A stretch of DNA of 64,000 bases from Phycisphaerae bacterium. GTDB lineage: Bacteria > Planctomycetota > Phycisphaerae > UBA1845 > UTPLA1. The notes under the pieces were generated by a model, which had not been told where the DNA came from, did no database searches, and worked only from the letters and a program-made list of their open reading frames with translations. The stretch lies in NCBI GenBank assembly GCA_019636475.1, contig JAHBXN010000001.1, positions 124,001 through 188,000 on the forward strand. Reading direction: 5' to 3'. Both the position numbers and the translations under genes were made by a program. Below are positions 29,662 through 37,295 of this stretch, piece by piece. Position 1 is the stretch's first letter. Each line of letters opens with the position of its first letter.

Positions 29662-29691
29662 TTGAGCCGCGCGATTCGATTGTGATACAAT
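29662..29691 (+). promoter_or_regulatory. Sigma70-like promoter of the dockerin protein gene
   Basis: TTGAGC at 29662-29667 and TACAAT at 29686-29691 with an 18-nt spacer. The -10 overlaps an upstream ATG (29690), which supports the later start at 29894 and implies a leader of roughly 195 nt. Confidence 0.55.
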
Positions 29692-29716
29692 GAAACCGAG
29701 AAAAAATTCTGAGTAT

Positions 29717-29791
29717 GGCGTGCCCGCCCGAGACGCGAGACCTCGAATGAGGCTCTCGAAAGGGGGTGTCTCAATTCCGTCACAGCACGCC
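29717..29791 (+). promoter_or_regulatory. Nested hairpin in the 5' leader
   Basis: Nested complementary segments: 7 bp (29717-29723 with 29785-29791), 5 bp (29730-29734 with 29768-29772), 5 bp (29736-29740 with 29754-29758) and 4 bp (29741-29744 with 29749-29752) closing a GAAT tetraloop. It matches no riboswitch family I recognise. Confidence 0.45.
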
Positions 29792-29893
29792 GATTCGGAT
29801 TTCATTCCAACTTCAACGATCTTCCAACGGCTCGGAAGGTCAGCAAACTACAAACGGCGCGCCTTGTCACATTTTAGGGAGGAACCTAAGTCA

Positions 29894-32704
29894 ATGTCGA
29901 AGCTTTGTCTCCGCGCAATCGCATCTGCATTTGTGGCGATCGGTTCGACAACCGTCGCAGCACGTGCCGACTTCACTTGGTCCACGCTGGACGGCCACGC
30001 CGTTCTACTTCTGGATCAAGGCACGGTCGCCGATCTCGGCCTCGTAATCGCACCGGACCTGGGATTCGGTGACGGGGACTTGCCATCCGCGATCGTGATG
30101 GACCTTGATCCCGGATCGGACCTGACATTCCTGACGGCCTCCAATCAGATCATCGAAATGATCCGCGGGAAGGTTCGATCGGGCACCGGTCTTTCGATCT
30201 CCTTCGGTTCGAATCACTTCAAGCTATCCGGGATTCAGGTCGCGGTGCCAGAGGGAACGAAACCGACTTCGTTTGAAGGGCAGATCGTTGCGTCCGAGGA
30301 CGCTTTCCCCCTCTTCTCGCTTTCAGATGGCAAGGCTTCTTTCATGAACAATGCGATCGGGCGAATTCTCGAAATTCGCGGTTCGAACGTTGCCATCACT
30401 GCGGAACTCGCGGCCGCGCTCGGAGAGCCGAAGCTCGAAGGCGTCTTCATCGGCCGACTGGACATTCACTCCGATGTCGTTTTCGCCGGCGGCGATGAAG
30501 AACCGGCCCCGCAGCCTGTCCCGGGCATCGGCGGCGATCCGCGAGCTCCTTCAGGCGCGGACGTGATTGTCGGCGGCGTTGGCGTATCCGGTTTCAACGG
30601 CAGCAATCCGAATGACGTCATCAACAATTTTGCAATTGCGGACTCGATCAAGGCGTACTCCGTCGCGACGACTTCCTGCAACCTCGGTGACGCCGAGTTG
30701 AACTGGTTCGACTGCAGCGACCAGAACAACCCCCAGTGCGCGCGACACCCCGTGATTTCTCAAAACATGTATCGGCTCAAGGCCGGTCGCTTTGAGCAGT
30801 TGGGGCAGAGCTGGCTCAAGCACGGTTTCTGCGCCCTGAGCGAGAACCTCTGCCAGTTGGGTTGCAGCGCCACCGGTTGCGATACGCTCGGCATAGGCTG
30901 CTCCGATCCCTACACGGCGTCGCGTAATAGCAGCGGCCTTGGCCCCAAGTCAGAGGTCAACGCATTTACCGGCGTCTTCCCCTATCCATTTAATCTACAG
31001 CCGAGCGGTAACTCAAACATACGAGCGCGACTGCAAGTCAAAGTGGATGACCTGACGCCCTCTTTAAATCCGGGCGCCCTCTATTTCGTCGAGGCTCAAT
31101 ACACCGCACAGGATGACGCGGCAGCGGGAAATGCCGACAACAACGCCTCGCACCGCCCCATCAGCATCAATGCCAGCCTGAATGTGTCATTCACCGGACC
31201 GACCGTTCAACAGATCCCGGCAATTCGGGCATGGAAAGCGAACGACAGTGGTGTCGTCGAGACCGACGTTCGAGTACCCGGTGAAGGGCTCATGATCCTG
31301 GCTTCGAAGGCGTCGGACAACGGCAACGGCACATGGCACTATGAGTACGCTCTTTACAATCAGAACTCCGACCGCTCGGCGCGATCCTTTGCGATCACCG
31401 TCGGCGCAAACACCGTCGTGACCAACATCGGCTTCCGCGATGTCGATTACCACAGCGGCGAGCCTTACAGCGGCACGGATTGGACCTCTTCAATCGTGGG
31501 CGGAGTCCTGACGTGGTCGACGCAGACCTTTGCTCAGAACGTCAATGCCAATGCGCTGCGGTGGGGAACGCTCTACAACTTCCGATTCGATGCCGACAAA
31601 CCCCCGGCCCAGAGTAACGGCAACGCCACCATCGGCCTTTTCAAGCCGGGCACGCCGACTTCTGTCACCGGTGCGGCTGTCGTTCCTCAGCCGGCGGCAT
31701 TGTTCATTTCGCTTTCGACCTCGCCGCCGACCACGCTCATGACACCCTGTACGCCATATACTTTCAACGTGACGATTTCACCCGGCGCGGACACGCTGGC
31801 TCCGGGAACAGCGCTTCTACACTACACCTACGACGGCGGCCCGGCTCAGTCAGTCCCGCTGACCTCGCTCGGCGGAACGCTCTACCGGGCCGATTTGCCG
31901 CCCGCGCGCTGTGGTGATACGCCCCGCTTCTATGTCTCCGGGCAGGGCACGCTGGGCGAGACGGTGTACTTCCCGGCATCGGCTCCGGCACTGGGCTACC
32001 AGCCGCAGGTCGCCACGATTCAGAACAGCACGCTTGTCCAGGCTGACTTTGAAAACGGTCTGCCCGCGGGCTGGTCGGCGAACGGACTCTGGAATTTCAC
32101 GGCGTCTTGTCCGGTCGTCCCGGCCAACTGCAGTTCCGGTCAGTTTGCGTACTATGGACAGACTGGCACATGCACCTATGACACGCCGGGGCAGGCAAAC
32201 AGCGGATCACTGTCGCTGACGGTGAATGTACCGAACTCATATAGCGCAGAGTTGCGGTATTGCTCGAATTTCCAGCGCGAAGGATTCGGCGTGTCGGACT
32301 GGCCGTCGGTCAAGATCGGCGCGACGAACATTGATCAGCCGGCACAGGGCGGCTCGACTTCGTCCGGTTGGGTCGAGCGAGTCGTCAACCTCAACAACTA
32401 TCGCGGCCAGACCGTCACCATCAACTTCAATTTTGATACCATTGACGATCAGGACAACGCATACCGCGGGTGGCAGATTGACAACGTTCGCATCAACATC
32501 GCCGAATTGGTCTGCAACGTCGTTGCTGGCGACCTGAACGGGGATGGCGTCGCAGACGGTCGCGATCTGCAACTCTTCACCGAAGCCGCGATGCAGCAGT
32601 CGACAAATCCGTCGCACCTCTGCACCGCAGACTTTAACGACGACGGCATGATCAGCCATCTCGATATTCCGGGTATGGCCGATTTGCTTGTGAATCTTCC
32701 CTGA
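29894..32704 (+). CDS. Secreted protein with dockerin tail
   Basis: 936 residues from ATG 29894 (GGGAGGAA 9 nt upstream). Signal peptide about residues 1-24 (AIASAFVAIGSTTVAARA). The N-terminal third resembles no family I can name; a Cys-rich stretch lies near residues 265-345. A long beta-rich region and a possible jelly-roll segment (about residues 715-870, ending YRGWQIDNVRIN) follow. The C-terminus is a dockerin type I pair: GDLNGDGVADGRD and ADFNDDGMISHLD. A secreted or surface component; no catalytic motif was recognised. It has its own promoter, a structured leader and a good terminator, so it is a single-gene unit. Confidence 0.82.
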   Translation: MSKLCLRAIASAFVAIGSTTVAARADFTWSTLDGHAVLLLDQGTVADLGLVIAPDLGFGDGDLPSAIVMDLDPGSDLTFLTASNQIIEMIRGKVRSGTGLSISFGSNHFKLSGIQVAVPEGTKPTSFEGQIVASEDAFPLFSLSDGKASFMNNAIGRILEIRGSNVAITAELAAALGEPKLEGVFIGRLDIHSDVVFAGGDEEPAPQPVPGIGGDPRAPSGADVIVGGVGVSGFNGSNPNDVINNFAIADSIKAYSVATTSCNLGDAELNWFDCSDQNNPQCARHPVISQNMYRLKAGRFEQLGQSWLKHGFCALSENLCQLGCSATGCDTLGIGCSDPYTASRNSSGLGPKSEVNAFTGVFPYPFNLQPSGNSNIRARLQVKVDDLTPSLNPGALYFVEAQYTAQDDAAAGNADNNASHRPISINASLNVSFTGPTVQQIPAIRAWKANDSGVVETDVRVPGEGLMILASKASDNGNGTWHYEYALYNQNSDRSARSFAITVGANTVVTNIGFRDVDYHSGEPYSGTDWTSSIVGGVLTWSTQTFAQNVNANALRWGTLYNFRFDADKPPAQSNGNATIGLFKPGTPTSVTGAAVVPQPAALFISLSTSPPTTLMTPCTPYTFNVTISPGADTLAPGTALLHYTYDGGPAQSVPLTSLGGTLYRADLPPARCGDTPRFYVSGQGTLGETVYFPASAPALGYQPQVATIQNSTLVQADFENGLPAGWSANGLWNFTASCPVVPANCSSGQFAYYGQTGTCTYDTPGQANSGSLSLTVNVPNSYSAELRYCSNFQREGFGVSDWPSVKIGATNIDQPAQGGSTSSGWVERVVNLNNYRGQTVTINFNFDTIDDQDNAYRGWQIDNVRINIAELVCNVVAGDLNGDGVADGRDLQLFTEAAMQQSTNPSHLCTADFNDDGMISHLDIPGMADLLVNLP

Positions 32705-32882: not shown

Positions 32883-33464
32883 GTGCGATTGATGATTGGT
32901 CATATCTGTATTGCCGCTTTCGTCATCGCCGGTATGCCGGACATGGCAGCGGCCCAATCGCCAGCATCGAACTTATCAGAAACAACAATCGACGACGCCG
33001 ACAAATTGGCGCAATCCGGACCGATTCACGATCTCAAGGCCATGCAGATCGACGACGTGCAAACCGTCGGAAATCTGCACGCCGACGATGAGTTACTAAG
33101 GCGTGTTGCCGATCGGCTCCTACGCGCCACGTATCAAGGGCGATATCACGTCGTTGTCCGTGATGACGAATTTCTGGGTGCGCAGCCGTCATCCAGGAGC
33201 GCCGCCCCCATCGAGATGGATGCAACGCCAAATGAGAACAAGCTCAAATATGAGCCGTCGCTCCCGGTCCATAAGCCGATTTCACCCTTTTGGTATATGC
33301 TAATCCCCGCGGTATCGGCATTCGTTCTCTTGCTGATTGTCCTGCGAATACTTGGGTGGGCTTTGCACAAGACCAAAGCCAGCCACGCCGACAACGGTGA
33401 ATCGGCGCCACGCCGAAAGCCAACGGCATCGAAACGCGCCGCCGGCAGGAGACATCAAAAATGA
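32883..33464 (+). CDS. Exported single-TM protein of unknown function, coupled to deiminase-fold gene
   Basis: 193 residues. Signal peptide (HICIAAFVIAGMPDMAAAQ), a periplasmic part of about 115 residues with an amphipathic helix LLRRVADRLLRATYQG, then a strong membrane helix (about residues 139-160, WYMLIPAVSAFVLLLIVL) and a very basic cytoplasmic tail. No family was recognised. The stop overlaps the next start by 4 bp (33461-33464), so it is translationally coupled to the secreted deiminase-fold protein and may anchor or assist it. GTG 32883 or ATG 32892 are both possible starts. Confidence 0.68.
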   Translation: MRLMIGHICIAAFVIAGMPDMAAAQSPASNLSETTIDDADKLAQSGPIHDLKAMQIDDVQTVGNLHADDELLRRVADRLLRATYQGRYHVVVRDDEFLGAQPSSRSAAPIEMDATPNENKLKYEPSLPVHKPISPFWYMLIPAVSAFVLLLIVLRILGWALHKTKASHADNGESAPRRKPTASKRAAGRRHQK

Positions 33465-35437
33465 AAGCTCACGCGGTGTCTTGGCCGTGGCCTACCCGAC
33501 TGAGTCGTCGCCCCCGCCTTTATTGGGTAGCCACCGCCCTTCTGTTGGCATCGATTGCACCACCGGCCGTGGCAGCATCCGATCCGCCAACCACAGCCTT
33601 CGATCCGATCGTCGTCGTGCCCGATCGTCCGACCGGGGAAGCGGCTGAACTCCTCAAGATGGGTGACATGATTCCTCCGCTTCGGGGTTTTCGAGCGCCG
33701 ATACTTCAGGCGGCCGATGATCCGTGGCCGATCGGTCCCGATCCTGCTGAGAACGATTCACTTCGATCGAGCCGCAGAATCGTTGCCACGAATCTCGCCA
33801 CGCGGGGCCTGATCTGGACAACGGCGGCGGCCATTCGTGAACATGGCGCGGCCGCGTTCACCACAATGTCACCTGCCCAGCAACGACGACATCTCCGCAA
33901 GATCGGCATTCCGGCGGACCTGCTTTCCCATTTCGGCCTGTCGGACAACCCGATCCCTGCATCGACGGGCGATCGAATTACGCTCAGCGAATTCTCAAGA
34001 CGAGTGAGCCAGATCATCGATGACGACGCGATCGACGAGTTCGCACATCGGTTCACCTTCTCTTTCCGGCCGACCAATCCGCGGTTTCGCGTTGTCGCCG
34101 AGTCCGGTGAAATGGAAATTGGCGAGGCCCGCGTTCAGTTCACGCGCGGCGATGACTGGCTTGGTCAAGGCGACGGCGGATGCGTGGACATCGTCAGGCA
34201 ATTCGCGTCCGAATTCAAAAGTGCCTCAATCGTGGCATCAATACAGGATCTTCACCTCCCCACGCTGCTCGATACGGCACGTGACTGGCGTCTGACCGGC
34301 GAGCCGCCTACGTTGATCGTCGTGCCCTACCCGCTTGCGCAGTGGGCGCAGGATAATGCGAAGGCCGGCGTTCAGGTCGGCCTCAACGGGAAGCCTGAGA
34401 CAACCGCAACGCTCGCGCCGCGCTACGCAAGCCGGCGAGATGAAGTCACCGTATTCGTGCCCGGCGAATCACAGGTAATCGACGCACTGTCGGCGACGGG
34501 TGGCCGTGTATTTCAGTCGAGCCTGCTGTTTCAAGGTGGAAATCTCCTGGCCGTCCGCGAGCCGAAGACCGGCCGAACCATACTTCTTGTCGGCGAGGCA
34601 GAGATTGCGCGCAATGTCGCGCTGGGGCTTAGCGTGGAACAGGCAACCACCGCTTTCACCGCGGAATTCGGCGTGGACGAAACGCGAATTCTGCCGTCCG
34701 TGTCGTTTCATGTCGATTACGATGTGTCGGTTCGGGCGGTCGACGGCCGCCTGACGGCTTTCGTGCAGGATGTCCCGGCGGGTGCGAAGCTCGTTCTCGC
34801 GGCGGGCATTCGGGCAATGCGGTCCGCCGAACGAATCACGGTATCAGATGCGGATGGTGCGATCGCGGCACTGGAAGCGAACGATCCGGACACGTTGCTT
34901 AAGCGGATTGCGCCGGCGCTTGCCCGCGGCGTTGATCGCGCCGGGCATTTTTCGGAGAGTTTTGCGCGCACTTTCTCAATATCTCCGACGGACTCACACG
35001 TCGGCAACCTTCGAATCTTCCTTGTAGCGATGGACTCATTCGTCCATCGAGTCGTACGGTCTTCCAACGCGGATACCCGCGCATATCTCGAATCGTTCAG
35101 TCGCCTGGATGCCGATCGAAACAGACTGCACCAGTTGATCGAGAGTTGGGGCTGGAAGGTTGTTCCGGTGCCGTGCGTCGGCGAAGGCGAGCGCGCAATC
35201 AACCCGCTTAACGGAATCCACACCACGCGACAATACCTGATGCCCGCCATCGGCGGACTTTACGCGGCACTCGACGACTCCGCGTCCGCGATTTTTCAAC
35301 GTGAGTTGGGCTCCGGCGTTGAGATCGTGCCGATTCGCTGCGCTGAAAGTCAGCGCCGCGCGGGGGCGCTCCACTGCTCGGTCGCGGTTTATCCGAAGCT
35401 GGATGACTCGAACTCCACCGCGGCAGAGCCGGAGTGA
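33461..35437 (+). CDS. Secreted guanidino-modifying-enzyme homologue (agmatine/peptidyl-arginine deiminase fold)
   Basis: 658 residues. Signal peptide about residues 1-38 (ending PPAVAAS). About 200 residues of unknown structure precede the catalytic-type half. That half shows, in the order expected of the agmatine deiminase/PAD superfamily: WAQDN near residue 294 (for W-x-x-D substrate Asp), FQGGN near 358 (the GGN motif), FHVDYDV near 416 (His-x-Asp) and ALHCSVAVYP near 638 (nucleophilic Cys). Family members hydrolyse or transfer guanidine groups of arginine, agmatine or protein arginines. The assignment rests on motifs only, with Gln where deiminases often have Arg in the first motif. Coupled to the upstream single-TM protein gene and convergent with a PDZ protein. 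Confidence 0.68.
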   Translation: MKAHAVSWPWPTRLSRRPRLYWVATALLLASIAPPAVAASDPPTTAFDPIVVVPDRPTGEAAELLKMGDMIPPLRGFRAPILQAADDPWPIGPDPAENDSLRSSRRIVATNLATRGLIWTTAAAIREHGAAAFTTMSPAQQRRHLRKIGIPADLLSHFGLSDNPIPASTGDRITLSEFSRRVSQIIDDDAIDEFAHRFTFSFRPTNPRFRVVAESGEMEIGEARVQFTRGDDWLGQGDGGCVDIVRQFASEFKSASIVASIQDLHLPTLLDTARDWRLTGEPPTLIVVPYPLAQWAQDNAKAGVQVGLNGKPETTATLAPRYASRRDEVTVFVPGESQVIDALSATGGRVFQSSLLFQGGNLLAVREPKTGRTILLVGEAEIARNVALGLSVEQATTAFTAEFGVDETRILPSVSFHVDYDVSVRAVDGRLTAFVQDVPAGAKLVLAAGIRAMRSAERITVSDADGAIAALEANDPDTLLKRIAPALARGVDRAGHFSESFARTFSISPTDSHVGNLRIFLVAMDSFVHRVVRSSNADTRAYLESFSRLDADRNRLHQLIESWGWKVVPVPCVGEGERAINPLNGIHTTRQYLMPAIGGLYAALDDSASAIFQRELGSGVEIVPIRCAESQRRAGALHCSVAVYPKLDDSNSTAAEPE

Positions 35438-35446
35438 ATCACGGGG

Positions 35447-36670
35447 CTATCTGGATTCCAGGCGCCACACTGCATCGGAATCCGTTCGATCCGATGCGAG
35501 GCCGGGCAACGCGAAGGTCTCGCGCCACATCTGCACGAACGAATCATCGGCATCGCTGATCGCCCTCGGTGACGTGTTCCGCTGAAATGCCCGTCCCCCT
35601 CGAAGACTTGATGGCCGCGCAAGCAGTGTCACTTCGAAATCCCTGACCTCGCCTCCGCGAACAATCTGAACAGACGGTTTGATGTTGGTCGCATTGTTGT
35701 TCACGACGATTCCGCGATTCAGCAATGGCACAAGCTGAACCTGCGGCTGGCGATTCGGATCGTTTTCGTCCTCATCCGGATCGGTCAACGCCTGTTCGTG
35801 AATCAGTCGCTCGAAATCTGACAGTGCGGTTTCCGGCACGAGTCGCCGGCCGTTGATTGCAACGATCAAGTCACCGGATCGCAGGTCCAGCCGCTTGTCC
35901 GCCCGTTCGACCTCCGTCAACTCCAGACCCACTGCGCCATCGGGCAGGCGGCGATCGGTCTCCCATGTGATGAGGCGGGTCGATGCCCGCTGAAAGCCGC
36001 GCACGTCAAAGCCGGCGACCGTTTCGCGATTCAGTGTACGGCCCGCTCCGCCGCGAAATACGGTGACGACGCAGCTCGTGCCCGGAATCTGACCGGCAAT
36101 CCACGAGACGAAAGATGCCGCCGATTCAGCCATTGTGCCGCGCCGGCCGTTCAGACCGATGAGTACATCGCCCTTGCGAAGGCCAACCAAAGCTGCCGCA
36201 GAACCCGGCACGATGTCCGTGAAAAGCAGGCCTGTCGCGCCGGGAGTCAAACGCGGATCCGCCTCAAAAGTGACATCCGCCGGATAATGAGAGATGCCAA
36301 GAAATGCACGAACAGGACCGACGTTCTGATTCAGATGGATCTCGTACACAACGCGCTTCAGGCGATTGCGAACCTCAACCCGATCGGTGGTTCGGTATGC
36401 CTCGCGCAGCACGTCGTAGATTGCCGGCCCATACCGCTCCAGCTTCACCGCTGCAAATTCGCGGGCGGTCCATTCCTCGTGGCCCAGTGAGTCGATGAGA
36501 CCCTTGATCTCCTCGTTCGCACTGACGGACTGTGTGGCATTGGAGATTGACGCATCGTTCGGAAGTTCATCATGCGTTGCAGCGACGACCAATGCGGACC
36601 GAAAGAGCAGCAGCGCCGCCGCAAGCGAGATGCCTCGAATCGAGCGGGTTCGGGTGCGATCAACCACCAT
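35447..36670 (-). CDS. Exported PDZ-domain protein
   Basis: About 407 residues. Signal peptide (GISLAAALLLFRSALVVAA), then a short HEAT-like helical segment (WTAREFAAVKLERYG; VEVRNRLKRVVYEI), then one clear PDZ domain (about residues 135-215: PGATGLLFTDIVPGSAAALVGLRKGDVLIGLNG, cut here into parts in the protein) and a second diverged PDZ (VGLELTEVE ... LRSGDLIVAINGRR). No protease triad is present, so it is probably a periplasmic binding or scaffold protein. GGAGG lies so close to ATG 36670 that the GTG just after it (36667) may be the true start. Divergent from the TIR-like gene. Confidence 0.75.
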   Translation of the reverse strand: MVVDRTRTRSIRGISLAAALLLFRSALVVAATHDELPNDASISNATQSVSANEEIKGLIDSLGHEEWTAREFAAVKLERYGPAIYDVLREAYRTTDRVEVRNRLKRVVYEIHLNQNVGPVRAFLGISHYPADVTFEADPRLTPGATGLLFTDIVPGSAAALVGLRKGDVLIGLNGRRGTMAESAASFVSWIAGQIPGTSCVVTVFRGGAGRTLNRETVAGFDVRGFQRASTRLITWETDRRLPDGAVGLELTEVERADKRLDLRSGDLIVAINGRRLVPETALSDFERLIHEQALTDPDEDENDPNRQPQVQLVPLLNRGIVVNNNATNIKPSVQIVRGGEVRDFEVTLLARPSSLRGGRAFQRNTSPRAISDADDSFVQMWRETFALPGLASDRTDSDAVWRLESR

Positions 36671-36848
36671 GCGCCTCCGTGAAATCCCTCGATGGCAGAA
36701 TAATGCCTGCACGCTCTATCTTATTATCTATCGACGAAAAAGTCGGGAAAACGTGCTGGGGTTTTTCAGAACATCGCAATACATCCCCTGGTTCCGAAAA
36801 TTCCACCGCTCGCCGCTCCGGCGTCCCCGTCATATTATCTTACACCCG

Positions 36849-37295
36849 ATGAACGCGTCTGCCGCAACAAAACTCTACATCTGCCACGAACCGGATCACG
36901 ACCTGATCGCAGCGAAGCTCGATGCATGGCCAAGGACCAATTCCGACATCGCCCGATACAACCAACGCCACAGTATCAACCCCGAAAGCGAGTTGGCAGA
37001 GCCGCTCAAGACGGAACTTCGCGCGCAGATCCACGCCGCCGACGTGGTCGTCTGTGTCGTCGGACAGGCGACCTTTCTGGACCCCTGGATCAAATGGGAG
37101 CTGACGACGGCTCGATCAAAGACCCATCGTGGCGGCTTTGTCGCCGTCATGCTGGATGATCTCTACGCGCACCCGCCGTCGCTGATTGGCGCGGGGACCA
37201 TGTTCATCAAGCTAAAGCGGACTTTCGTAATGGACGCGATCGCATGGGCGGCGGATCAGCAGGACCCCTGCGAGGATTTTATCTTGGAGGACTGA
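36849..37295 (+). CDS. Orphan TIR-like protein (ThsB/DUF1863 type)
   Basis: 148 residues. A Rossmann-like TIR variant: strand 1 KLYICHEPDHDLIAAKL, a helix with ELRAQIHAADVVVCVVGQAT (the strand followed by G-x-x-T is typical of DUF1863/ThsB), then DPWIKWELTTARSK and FVAVMLDD. In Thoeris systems ThsB senses phage and makes a cyclic ADP-ribose signal for ThsA, but no ThsA-like (SIR2/SLOG or TM effector) gene is near. Neighbours are a PDZ protein and a DUF1501 protein. ATG 36849 is used because the fold begins there and a TATTAT (36833-36838) just upstream suggests a leaderless transcript; there is no Shine-Dalgarno. Confidence 0.7.
   Translation: MNASAATKLYICHEPDHDLIAAKLDAWPRTNSDIARYNQRHSINPESELAEPLKTELRAQIHAADVVVCVVGQATFLDPWIKWELTTARSKTHRGGFVAVMLDDLYAHPPSLIGAGTMFIKLKRTFVMDAIAWAADQQDPCEDFILED

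Follow-up and report, generated by a model that had tools for sequence, protein, structure and literature searches.

The window that we analyzed is a 64,000-nucleotide stretch of DNA from a Phycisphaerae bacterium (positions 124001-188000 of contig C1 in a 4.4 Mb genome, G000). Within it, an ORF for a 658-residue protein with a signal-peptide-like N terminus, referred to here as the enzyme, shares an ATGA overlap with a shorter ORF upstream, whose start codon is GTG (an alternative ATG is possible at 32892). The original prediction had assigned to the product of this overlapping gene a signal peptide, one transmembrane (TM) segment, and a basic tail, and we found the same layout: a signal-like segment, a conserved stretch of ~50 residues, a proline-rich linker, one TM segment, and a basic tail. 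Directly upstream of the two genes, on the same strand, lies a gene for an exported protein that has a conserved domain of ~390 residues (approximately residues 290-680), a MAM-like stretch, and, by Pfam, a C-terminal dockerin type I domain. No model in Pfam or NCBIfam covers the ~390-residue domain. This gene probably belongs to the functional unit as well. Close to the locus, the ORF at 36495-37295 has a TIR-like or DUF1863-like look (YICHEPDHDLIAAKLDAW).

Table 1. Features of the locus, their positions in the window, and the evidence for each
Feature	Position (strand)	Evidence or note
Dockerin-tailed exported protein, candidate substrate	29690..32704 (+)	Pfam matches; adjacent homologues in 17/30 enzyme loci
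Arg412 codon CGT in CSDPYTASR-N, candidate modified residue	30923..30925 (+)	Association with enzyme presence
Partner/anchor ORF, 193 aa	32883..33464 (+)	Signal segment, ~50-aa exported domain, linker, one TM segment, basic tail
Enzyme ORF, 658 aa	33461..35437 (+)	Exported GME-fold (deiminase-type) protein; AlphaFold model and PDB matches; 23-member family
Enzyme residues 1-39, signal-peptide-like	33461..33577 (+)	Hydropathy peak VATALLLASIAPPAVAA, then A-x-A; comparable segments in homologues
Enzyme N-terminal helical region, ~residues 60-200	33638..34060 (+)	Secondary structure of the model; invariant residues
Catalytic GME domain, ~residues 205-650	34073..35410 (+)	Model; residues 205-648 aligned by VIA-align to PPAD and AgDI structures
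W295-A-Q297-D298, guanidinium-binding Asp	34343..34354 (+)	W295 and D298 invariant, Q297 22/23; aligns with W-x-R-D of PF04371 relatives
R321 and R325, candidate main-chain-binding arginines	34421..34435 (+)	23/23 and 22/23; equivalence to PPAD/PAD arginines inferred
F-Q-G-G-N, residues 357-361	34529..34543 (+)	Invariant; aligns with HGGGN of PF04371 relatives
H417-x-D419, catalytic His and second guanidinium-binding Asp	34709..34717 (+)	Invariant; aligns with H-I/L-D of PF04371 relatives
N584, counterpart of catalytic-triad Asn (PPAD N297)	35210..35212 (+)	Invariant; aligns with Y-x-N of relatives
C639, nucleophilic Cys	35375..35377 (+)	Invariant; aligns with HC of agmatine deiminases and PPAD-like relatives

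The enzyme family and its fold

Strong homologues of the enzyme (E ≤ 1e-89, 35-45% identity) were found in 18 of 61 genomes, with weak matches in two more. A profile search across the order located the enzyme in 24 of 114 genomes, and a sample of the phylum added only two further genomes. When 23 copies were aligned, W295, D298, R321, Q358-N361, E379, R384, H417, D419, N584, R632, and C639 never varied; among these, D298, H417, D419, N584, and C639 correspond to the catalytic Asp, His, Asp, Asn, and Cys, in the order typical of the GME superfamily. The deiminase motifs predicted earlier from the 658-residue protein (W295-A-Q-D298, F-Q-G-G-N361, H417-V-D419, and C639) are all there, in the right order. 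As judged from these sequences, the enzyme defines a planctomycete family and its motifs are not due to chance, because the catalytic positions are invariant across the 23 homologues.

Gln in place of Arg in the first motif had been singled out as unusual. The substitution is present, but it is no oddity: Q297, like R325, is retained in 22 of 23 copies. To go by the alignment, Gln at this position is the rule of the family, though not an absolute one, and L129, a member found later, has W-T-R-D. The N-terminal region of ~200 residues, which had been called novel, matched no Pfam model, is predicted to be helical, and is partly conserved (G76, L112, G116, G149, P151, and D153 are invariant). 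The expectation that most relatives are cytoplasmic proteins of ~350 residues fits the structural relatives and fails for the sequence relatives, which are exported and 600-800 residues long.

Of the 23 members, 16 reach E ≤ 0.01 against PF04371, the best of them 7e-13. Some relatives pass the curated Pfam cut-off of 25 bits (31.1 and 25.4 bits), and the window enzyme, at 12.3 bits, falls under it. Single-sequence searches with the window enzyme returned only PF04371 from Pfam (E 0.1) and nothing from the PDB (phmmer); an NCBIfam match to TldD was rejected as chance. Among PDB sequences, a profile search turned up no deiminase; deiminases emerged only from fold comparison. In a profile alignment, all catalytic positions (W/D, GGN, H-x-D, N, and C) were in register with those of exported PPAD-like PF04371 relatives from the same taxonomic order.

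The AlphaFold model of the enzyme (pLDDT 83.9, pTM 0.86) includes a helical insertion in the GME domain near residues 440-512. Comparison with agmatine deiminase had been proposed as a check of the original prediction, and the model returned the GME fold: with VIA-align, over model residues ~205-650, Z was 27.0 for Porphyromonas gingivalis PPAD (2.9 Å over 299 residues), followed by agmatine deiminase at 26.8 and human PAD4 at 21.8. Each of the first 11 Foldseek matches (E 1e-8 to 1e-10) was an agmatine deiminase or a putative peptidyl-arginine deiminase. For the model of a homologue that is fused to the partner domain (see below), Z was 23.4 for PPAD, 21.9 for AgDI, and 18.8 for PAD, which puts PPAD more than 1 Z unit ahead of agmatine deiminase. 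It is thus well supported by modeling that the enzyme has the five-fold α/β propeller of the GME superfamily, and the fold match together with the aligned motifs suggests that its catalytic residues share one site; no sign was seen of the outcome that the original prediction had named as refuting it. According to the paper on the PPAD structure, the Asn whose counterpart here is N584 belongs to a Cys-His-Asn triad of all citrullinating GMEs, and two arginines bind the main chain of the substrate in PPAD, ADI, and PAD, a feature that agmatine deiminase lacks (PMC4487231). R321 and R325 are conserved in the enzyme, and their spacing and alignment make them candidates for the equivalents of R152 and R154 of PPAD.

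The tie between the PPAD and AgDI structures (27.0 vs 26.8) would suit an exported enzyme for small molecules that works outside the cytoplasm, deiminating free arginine, agmatine, or a related guanidine to gain nitrogen or energy or to control pH, with the exported proteins encoded nearby being mere neighbors. So would the lack of any other PF04371 or PF03068 protein in the genome, and the fact that the exported neighbor is missing at some loci. Such a role is unlikely in our judgment: the enzyme has WxQD rather than the WxRDxxP of agmatine deiminases, it is exported and carries two extra arginines that are invariant (R321) or nearly so (R325), and a comparison of neighborhoods revealed no recurrent transport or catabolic genes. 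Action on small molecules would also leave the link between Arg412 and the enzyme, described below, unexplained. A further alternative is that this GME-fold protein is inactive and only binds arginine, as its divergent sequence and the Gln that replaces the first-motif Arg might indicate, but none of the catalytic positions varies among the 23 copies, and the same Gln occurs in vertebrate-type PADs of related genomes (W-I-Q-D); we consider loss of activity very improbable.

The enzyme shares with PPAD the five-bladed GME fold, export, the Asp/His/Asp/Asn/Cys set, and, in R321 and R325, candidates for its two arginines near the substrate site. It differs in sequence (~15% identity), in its added N-terminal helical region and the insertion near residues 440-512, in having Gln for Arg in the first motif, in its separate membrane anchor, in having a neighbor as candidate substrate, and in lacking the C-terminal Ig-like and T9SS CTD domains of PPAD, since it ends at residue 658, ~10 residues past the catalytic domain. 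Agmatine deiminases (PF04371) have the same fold and catalytic residues and a distant sequence similarity in the C-terminal part, but they are cytoplasmic proteins of ~350 residues with WxRDxxP and a closed site, whereas the enzyme has 658 residues, WAQDNAKAG, and a signal-like N terminus; the aligned PF04371 relatives (A3) lack equivalents of R321 and R325. PAD4 (PF03068) is similar in fold, in its W-x-Q-D first motif, in the helical insertion of its catalytic domain, and in acting on protein, as we propose for the enzyme. Vertebrate-type PADs have PAD_N and PAD_M domains, whereas the enzyme has neither and is exported, and PF03068 gave no match in the window protein or its own genome (hhalign E 0.38).

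Exported PPAD-like proteins of planctomycetes (A4, L074-L082) come from the same organisms, have a PF04371-type domain, and can be aligned with the enzyme over the whole domain. Unlike the enzyme, they have W-I/M-R-D-Y-G-P-R, HGGGN, and C-terminal domains of their own plus dockerin, and they lack the partner domain. We class the enzyme as the founder of an exported GME family that is new, since it falls short of full membership in the agmatine deiminase, PPAD, and vertebrate-type PAD groups; from its motifs and model, it appears to work like a protein-arginine deiminase of the superfamily.

Two other kinds of deiminase were seen in these organisms. L074-L082 constitute a second exported deiminase family of the order, 550-850 aa long and frequently carrying a dockerin at the C terminus; the genomes of 43 of 61 relatives have PF04371 matches, and that of the window has none. 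In three genomes of planctomycetes (L057, L058, L059-L062), vertebrate-type PAD_C domains (W-I/L/A-Q-D, E-V-H-C-G-T-N) lie within very long frames, the longest of 2472 aa.

The single-TM partner

A short gene of the partner type precedes the enzyme in 12 copies besides that of the window. The ~50-residue stretch has the consensus L-P-x-x-F-L-R-R-V-A-D-R-x-I-R-x-x-Y-x-x-R-x-R-x-V-V, of which R74-V-A-D-R and V91 form the core in the window partner, and a leave-one-out profile recognized this partner with E 9e-13. The domain is encoded as a separate gene in 13 copies plus one later copy, is fused to the enzyme in nine plus four, and is absent from one; in later-fetched loci with complete upstream DNA, it was present in five of five (four fused, one separate). 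In the fused form, a signal-like segment precedes the domain at the N terminus of the enzyme, and there is no TM segment. The coupling of enzyme and TM protein that had been proposed from the window alone is borne out by these fusions: given that 13 other copies carry the partner domain and the enzyme in one chain, the two are expected to work together, and comparison of the sequences strongly supports the upstream gene product as a true partner of the enzyme. A search of the PDB with the partner profile gave no match, and a match to TrbC (E 0.004, in one of 13 members) was rejected as a chance similarity of TM segments.

Two fused enzymes, L123 (G246:C30) and L039, have lipobox-like signal ends (LLPAC and LISAC), which suggests that they are tethered by lipid instead of a TM segment. 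The occurrence of a TM form and a lipid form suggests, in turn, that tethering is the point of the partner. The sole enzyme copy without a partner domain (L049, G055:C44) has no exported neighbor. At L032:2593-6447 (G028:C19), the partner domain and the deiminase share a 1284-aa frame with TPR-like repeats and a polyferredoxin-like multi-TM region that has Fe-S cysteine motifs; to judge by its composition, it is possibly a redox-linked version of the system.

The dockerin-tailed family and Arg412

The dockerin-tailed family adjoins the enzyme in 12 of 22 loci in the first set and in five of eight later ones, including one genome of another class. In 11 of the 12 adjacent loci of the first set, it is on the same strand as the enzyme, usually directly downstream. 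With ~6.5 copies per genome, chance adjacency is ~2.6% per locus, although the shared ancestry of the loci makes the resulting probability overstated. All 26 enzyme genomes encode the family, compared with 19 of 43 enzyme-lacking genomes of the first set (Fisher 1.3e-5, for the first 61 genomes only). Two copies stand in tandem behind the enzyme at L034 and L038, and at L036 the enzyme and the dockerin-tailed protein alternate twice, with one beside each enzyme copy.

The remaining ten first-set loci have no adjacent candidate substrate. Among them, L040, L045, L047, and L051 form a clade of second enzyme copies with other neighbors. They share a different exported neighbor, which we read as inherited synteny, because genes for PdxB-like and MqnE-like housekeeping proteins are equally common to the clade. 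Conserved antisense ORFs in the neighborhood comparison were rejected as shadows of the enzyme frame.

If the dockerin-tailed family is the substrate, an arginine within it should track the enzyme, and position 412 does so. It is Arg in 20 of 20 enzyme-adjacent copies and Leu in 19 of 20 copies from enzyme-lacking genomes (Arg in the other one); among unselected distant copies within enzyme genomes, it is Arg in seven of 20. In an unprejudiced scan of 319 columns, position 412 came top for separating enzyme-adjacent from enzyme-lacking copies, which are equally alike between and within groups (50%, 48%, and 52% identity). Arginines 362, 367, 447, 489, 562, 624, and 632 are conserved with or without the enzyme.

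We also searched DNA for the pattern D-P-Y-x-x-x-R-N-G. Before checking, of the genomes of the order, 21 of the 24 with the enzyme and eight of the 90 others gave a match. Five of those eight were discounted, as the dockerin-tailed family is not encoded there; G010 was discarded for an in-frame stop in the motif and G017 as a genome without a family member, leaving G004 (75% complete) as the sole genuine match among the 90. The resulting score, 21 of 24 against one of 90, covers the canonical motif only, with variant contexts counted in neither group; G008 and G028, which have the enzyme and no canonical match, carry Arg in a variant context. The third such genome, G055, has the enzyme copy without a partner domain and is alone among the enzyme genomes in having Leu at position 412 of all its family copies. 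The Leu version of the pattern was counted 82 times in genomes that lack the enzyme and 21 times in those that have it.

An enzyme of the envelope might instead deiminate other proteins, with Arg412 marking a sub-type that is co-inherited for another reason. Consistent with this, Arg412 is also found in copies distant from the enzyme (the seven of 20 above), some enzyme copies have no dockerin-tailed neighbor, and Lys420 partly tracks Arg412, as it would in a sub-type. However, on the best tree, built without column 412, the residue changed between Arg and non-Arg ~10 times, with at least five changes forced by supported branches, so the Arg412 copies, arising on several branches, are not one sub-family; and column 412 separates the groups better than any other. 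When Arg412 was compared with enzyme presence in a strict independent-pairs test, informative pairs were too few for significance to be reached. We consider other protein substrates improbable, somewhat more so than small molecules.

The residues at position 420 bear on the reaction as well. Arg412 copies have Lys420 in 30 of 49 cases and Arg420 in 18, and Leu412 copies have Arg420 in 34 of 40. As amidinotransferases belong to the GME enzymes, this pairing could reflect another reaction of the superfamily, such as amidino transfer from Arg412 to an amine such as Lys420, rather than hydrolysis. The Arg412 copies with Arg instead of Lys at 420 speak against such a transfer, as does the fact that the structural matches returned were deiminases, and we give it hardly any weight.

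A proposed system for citrullinating exported proteins

We favor, by a little over even odds, the reading of the enzyme as a protein-arginine deiminase that is exported, tethered to the membrane, and directed at Arg412 of dockerin-tailed proteins, which it would citrullinate. The partner would be exported but remain membrane-bound through its C-terminal TM helix, the basic tail lying inside, and its ~50-residue outer domain would hold the exported enzyme at the membrane, placing the reaction outside the inner membrane. There, D298 and D419 would bind the guanidinium of a substrate arginine, which C639 would attack with the assistance of H417 and N584; ammonia would be released and the protein arginine, rather than free arginine, hydrolyzed to citrulline. 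The likely substrates are exported dockerin-tailed proteins as they pass or fold at the membrane, and the likely site is Arg412 in the conserved cysteine-rich loop C-S-D-P-Y-x-x-x-R-N-G. Citrullination of Arg412 would take away a positive charge where enzyme-free relatives have Leu, and one might speculate that a neutral side chain here serves packing, assembly, or dockerin-mediated display.

The envelope-linked arginine- or peptide-modifying system of the original prediction seems the best reading of the sequences and models, and a candidate substrate and residue can now be named for it; the dockerin-tailed neighbor and its Arg412-enzyme association are new here. The broader view, of self-contained, site-specific citrullination of a cell's own exported proteins by a deiminase, an anchor, and paralogous substrates, whose target arginine is gained and lost with the enzyme, we hold more tentatively, at slightly short of an even chance.

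Bacterial protein citrullination is known mainly from PPAD of one pathogen, and what PPAD does for that bacterium is unclear (PMC6367333). Our literature searches on citrullination in planctomycetes found nothing relevant. Here, comparative genomics alone proposes an enzyme, a tether, a substrate family, and a single residue. If the proposal is true, the envelope of Planctomycetota would gain an endogenous protein modification, and protein deiminases would have a second exported lineage. The system suggests a bacterium that modifies its own surface proteins chemically.
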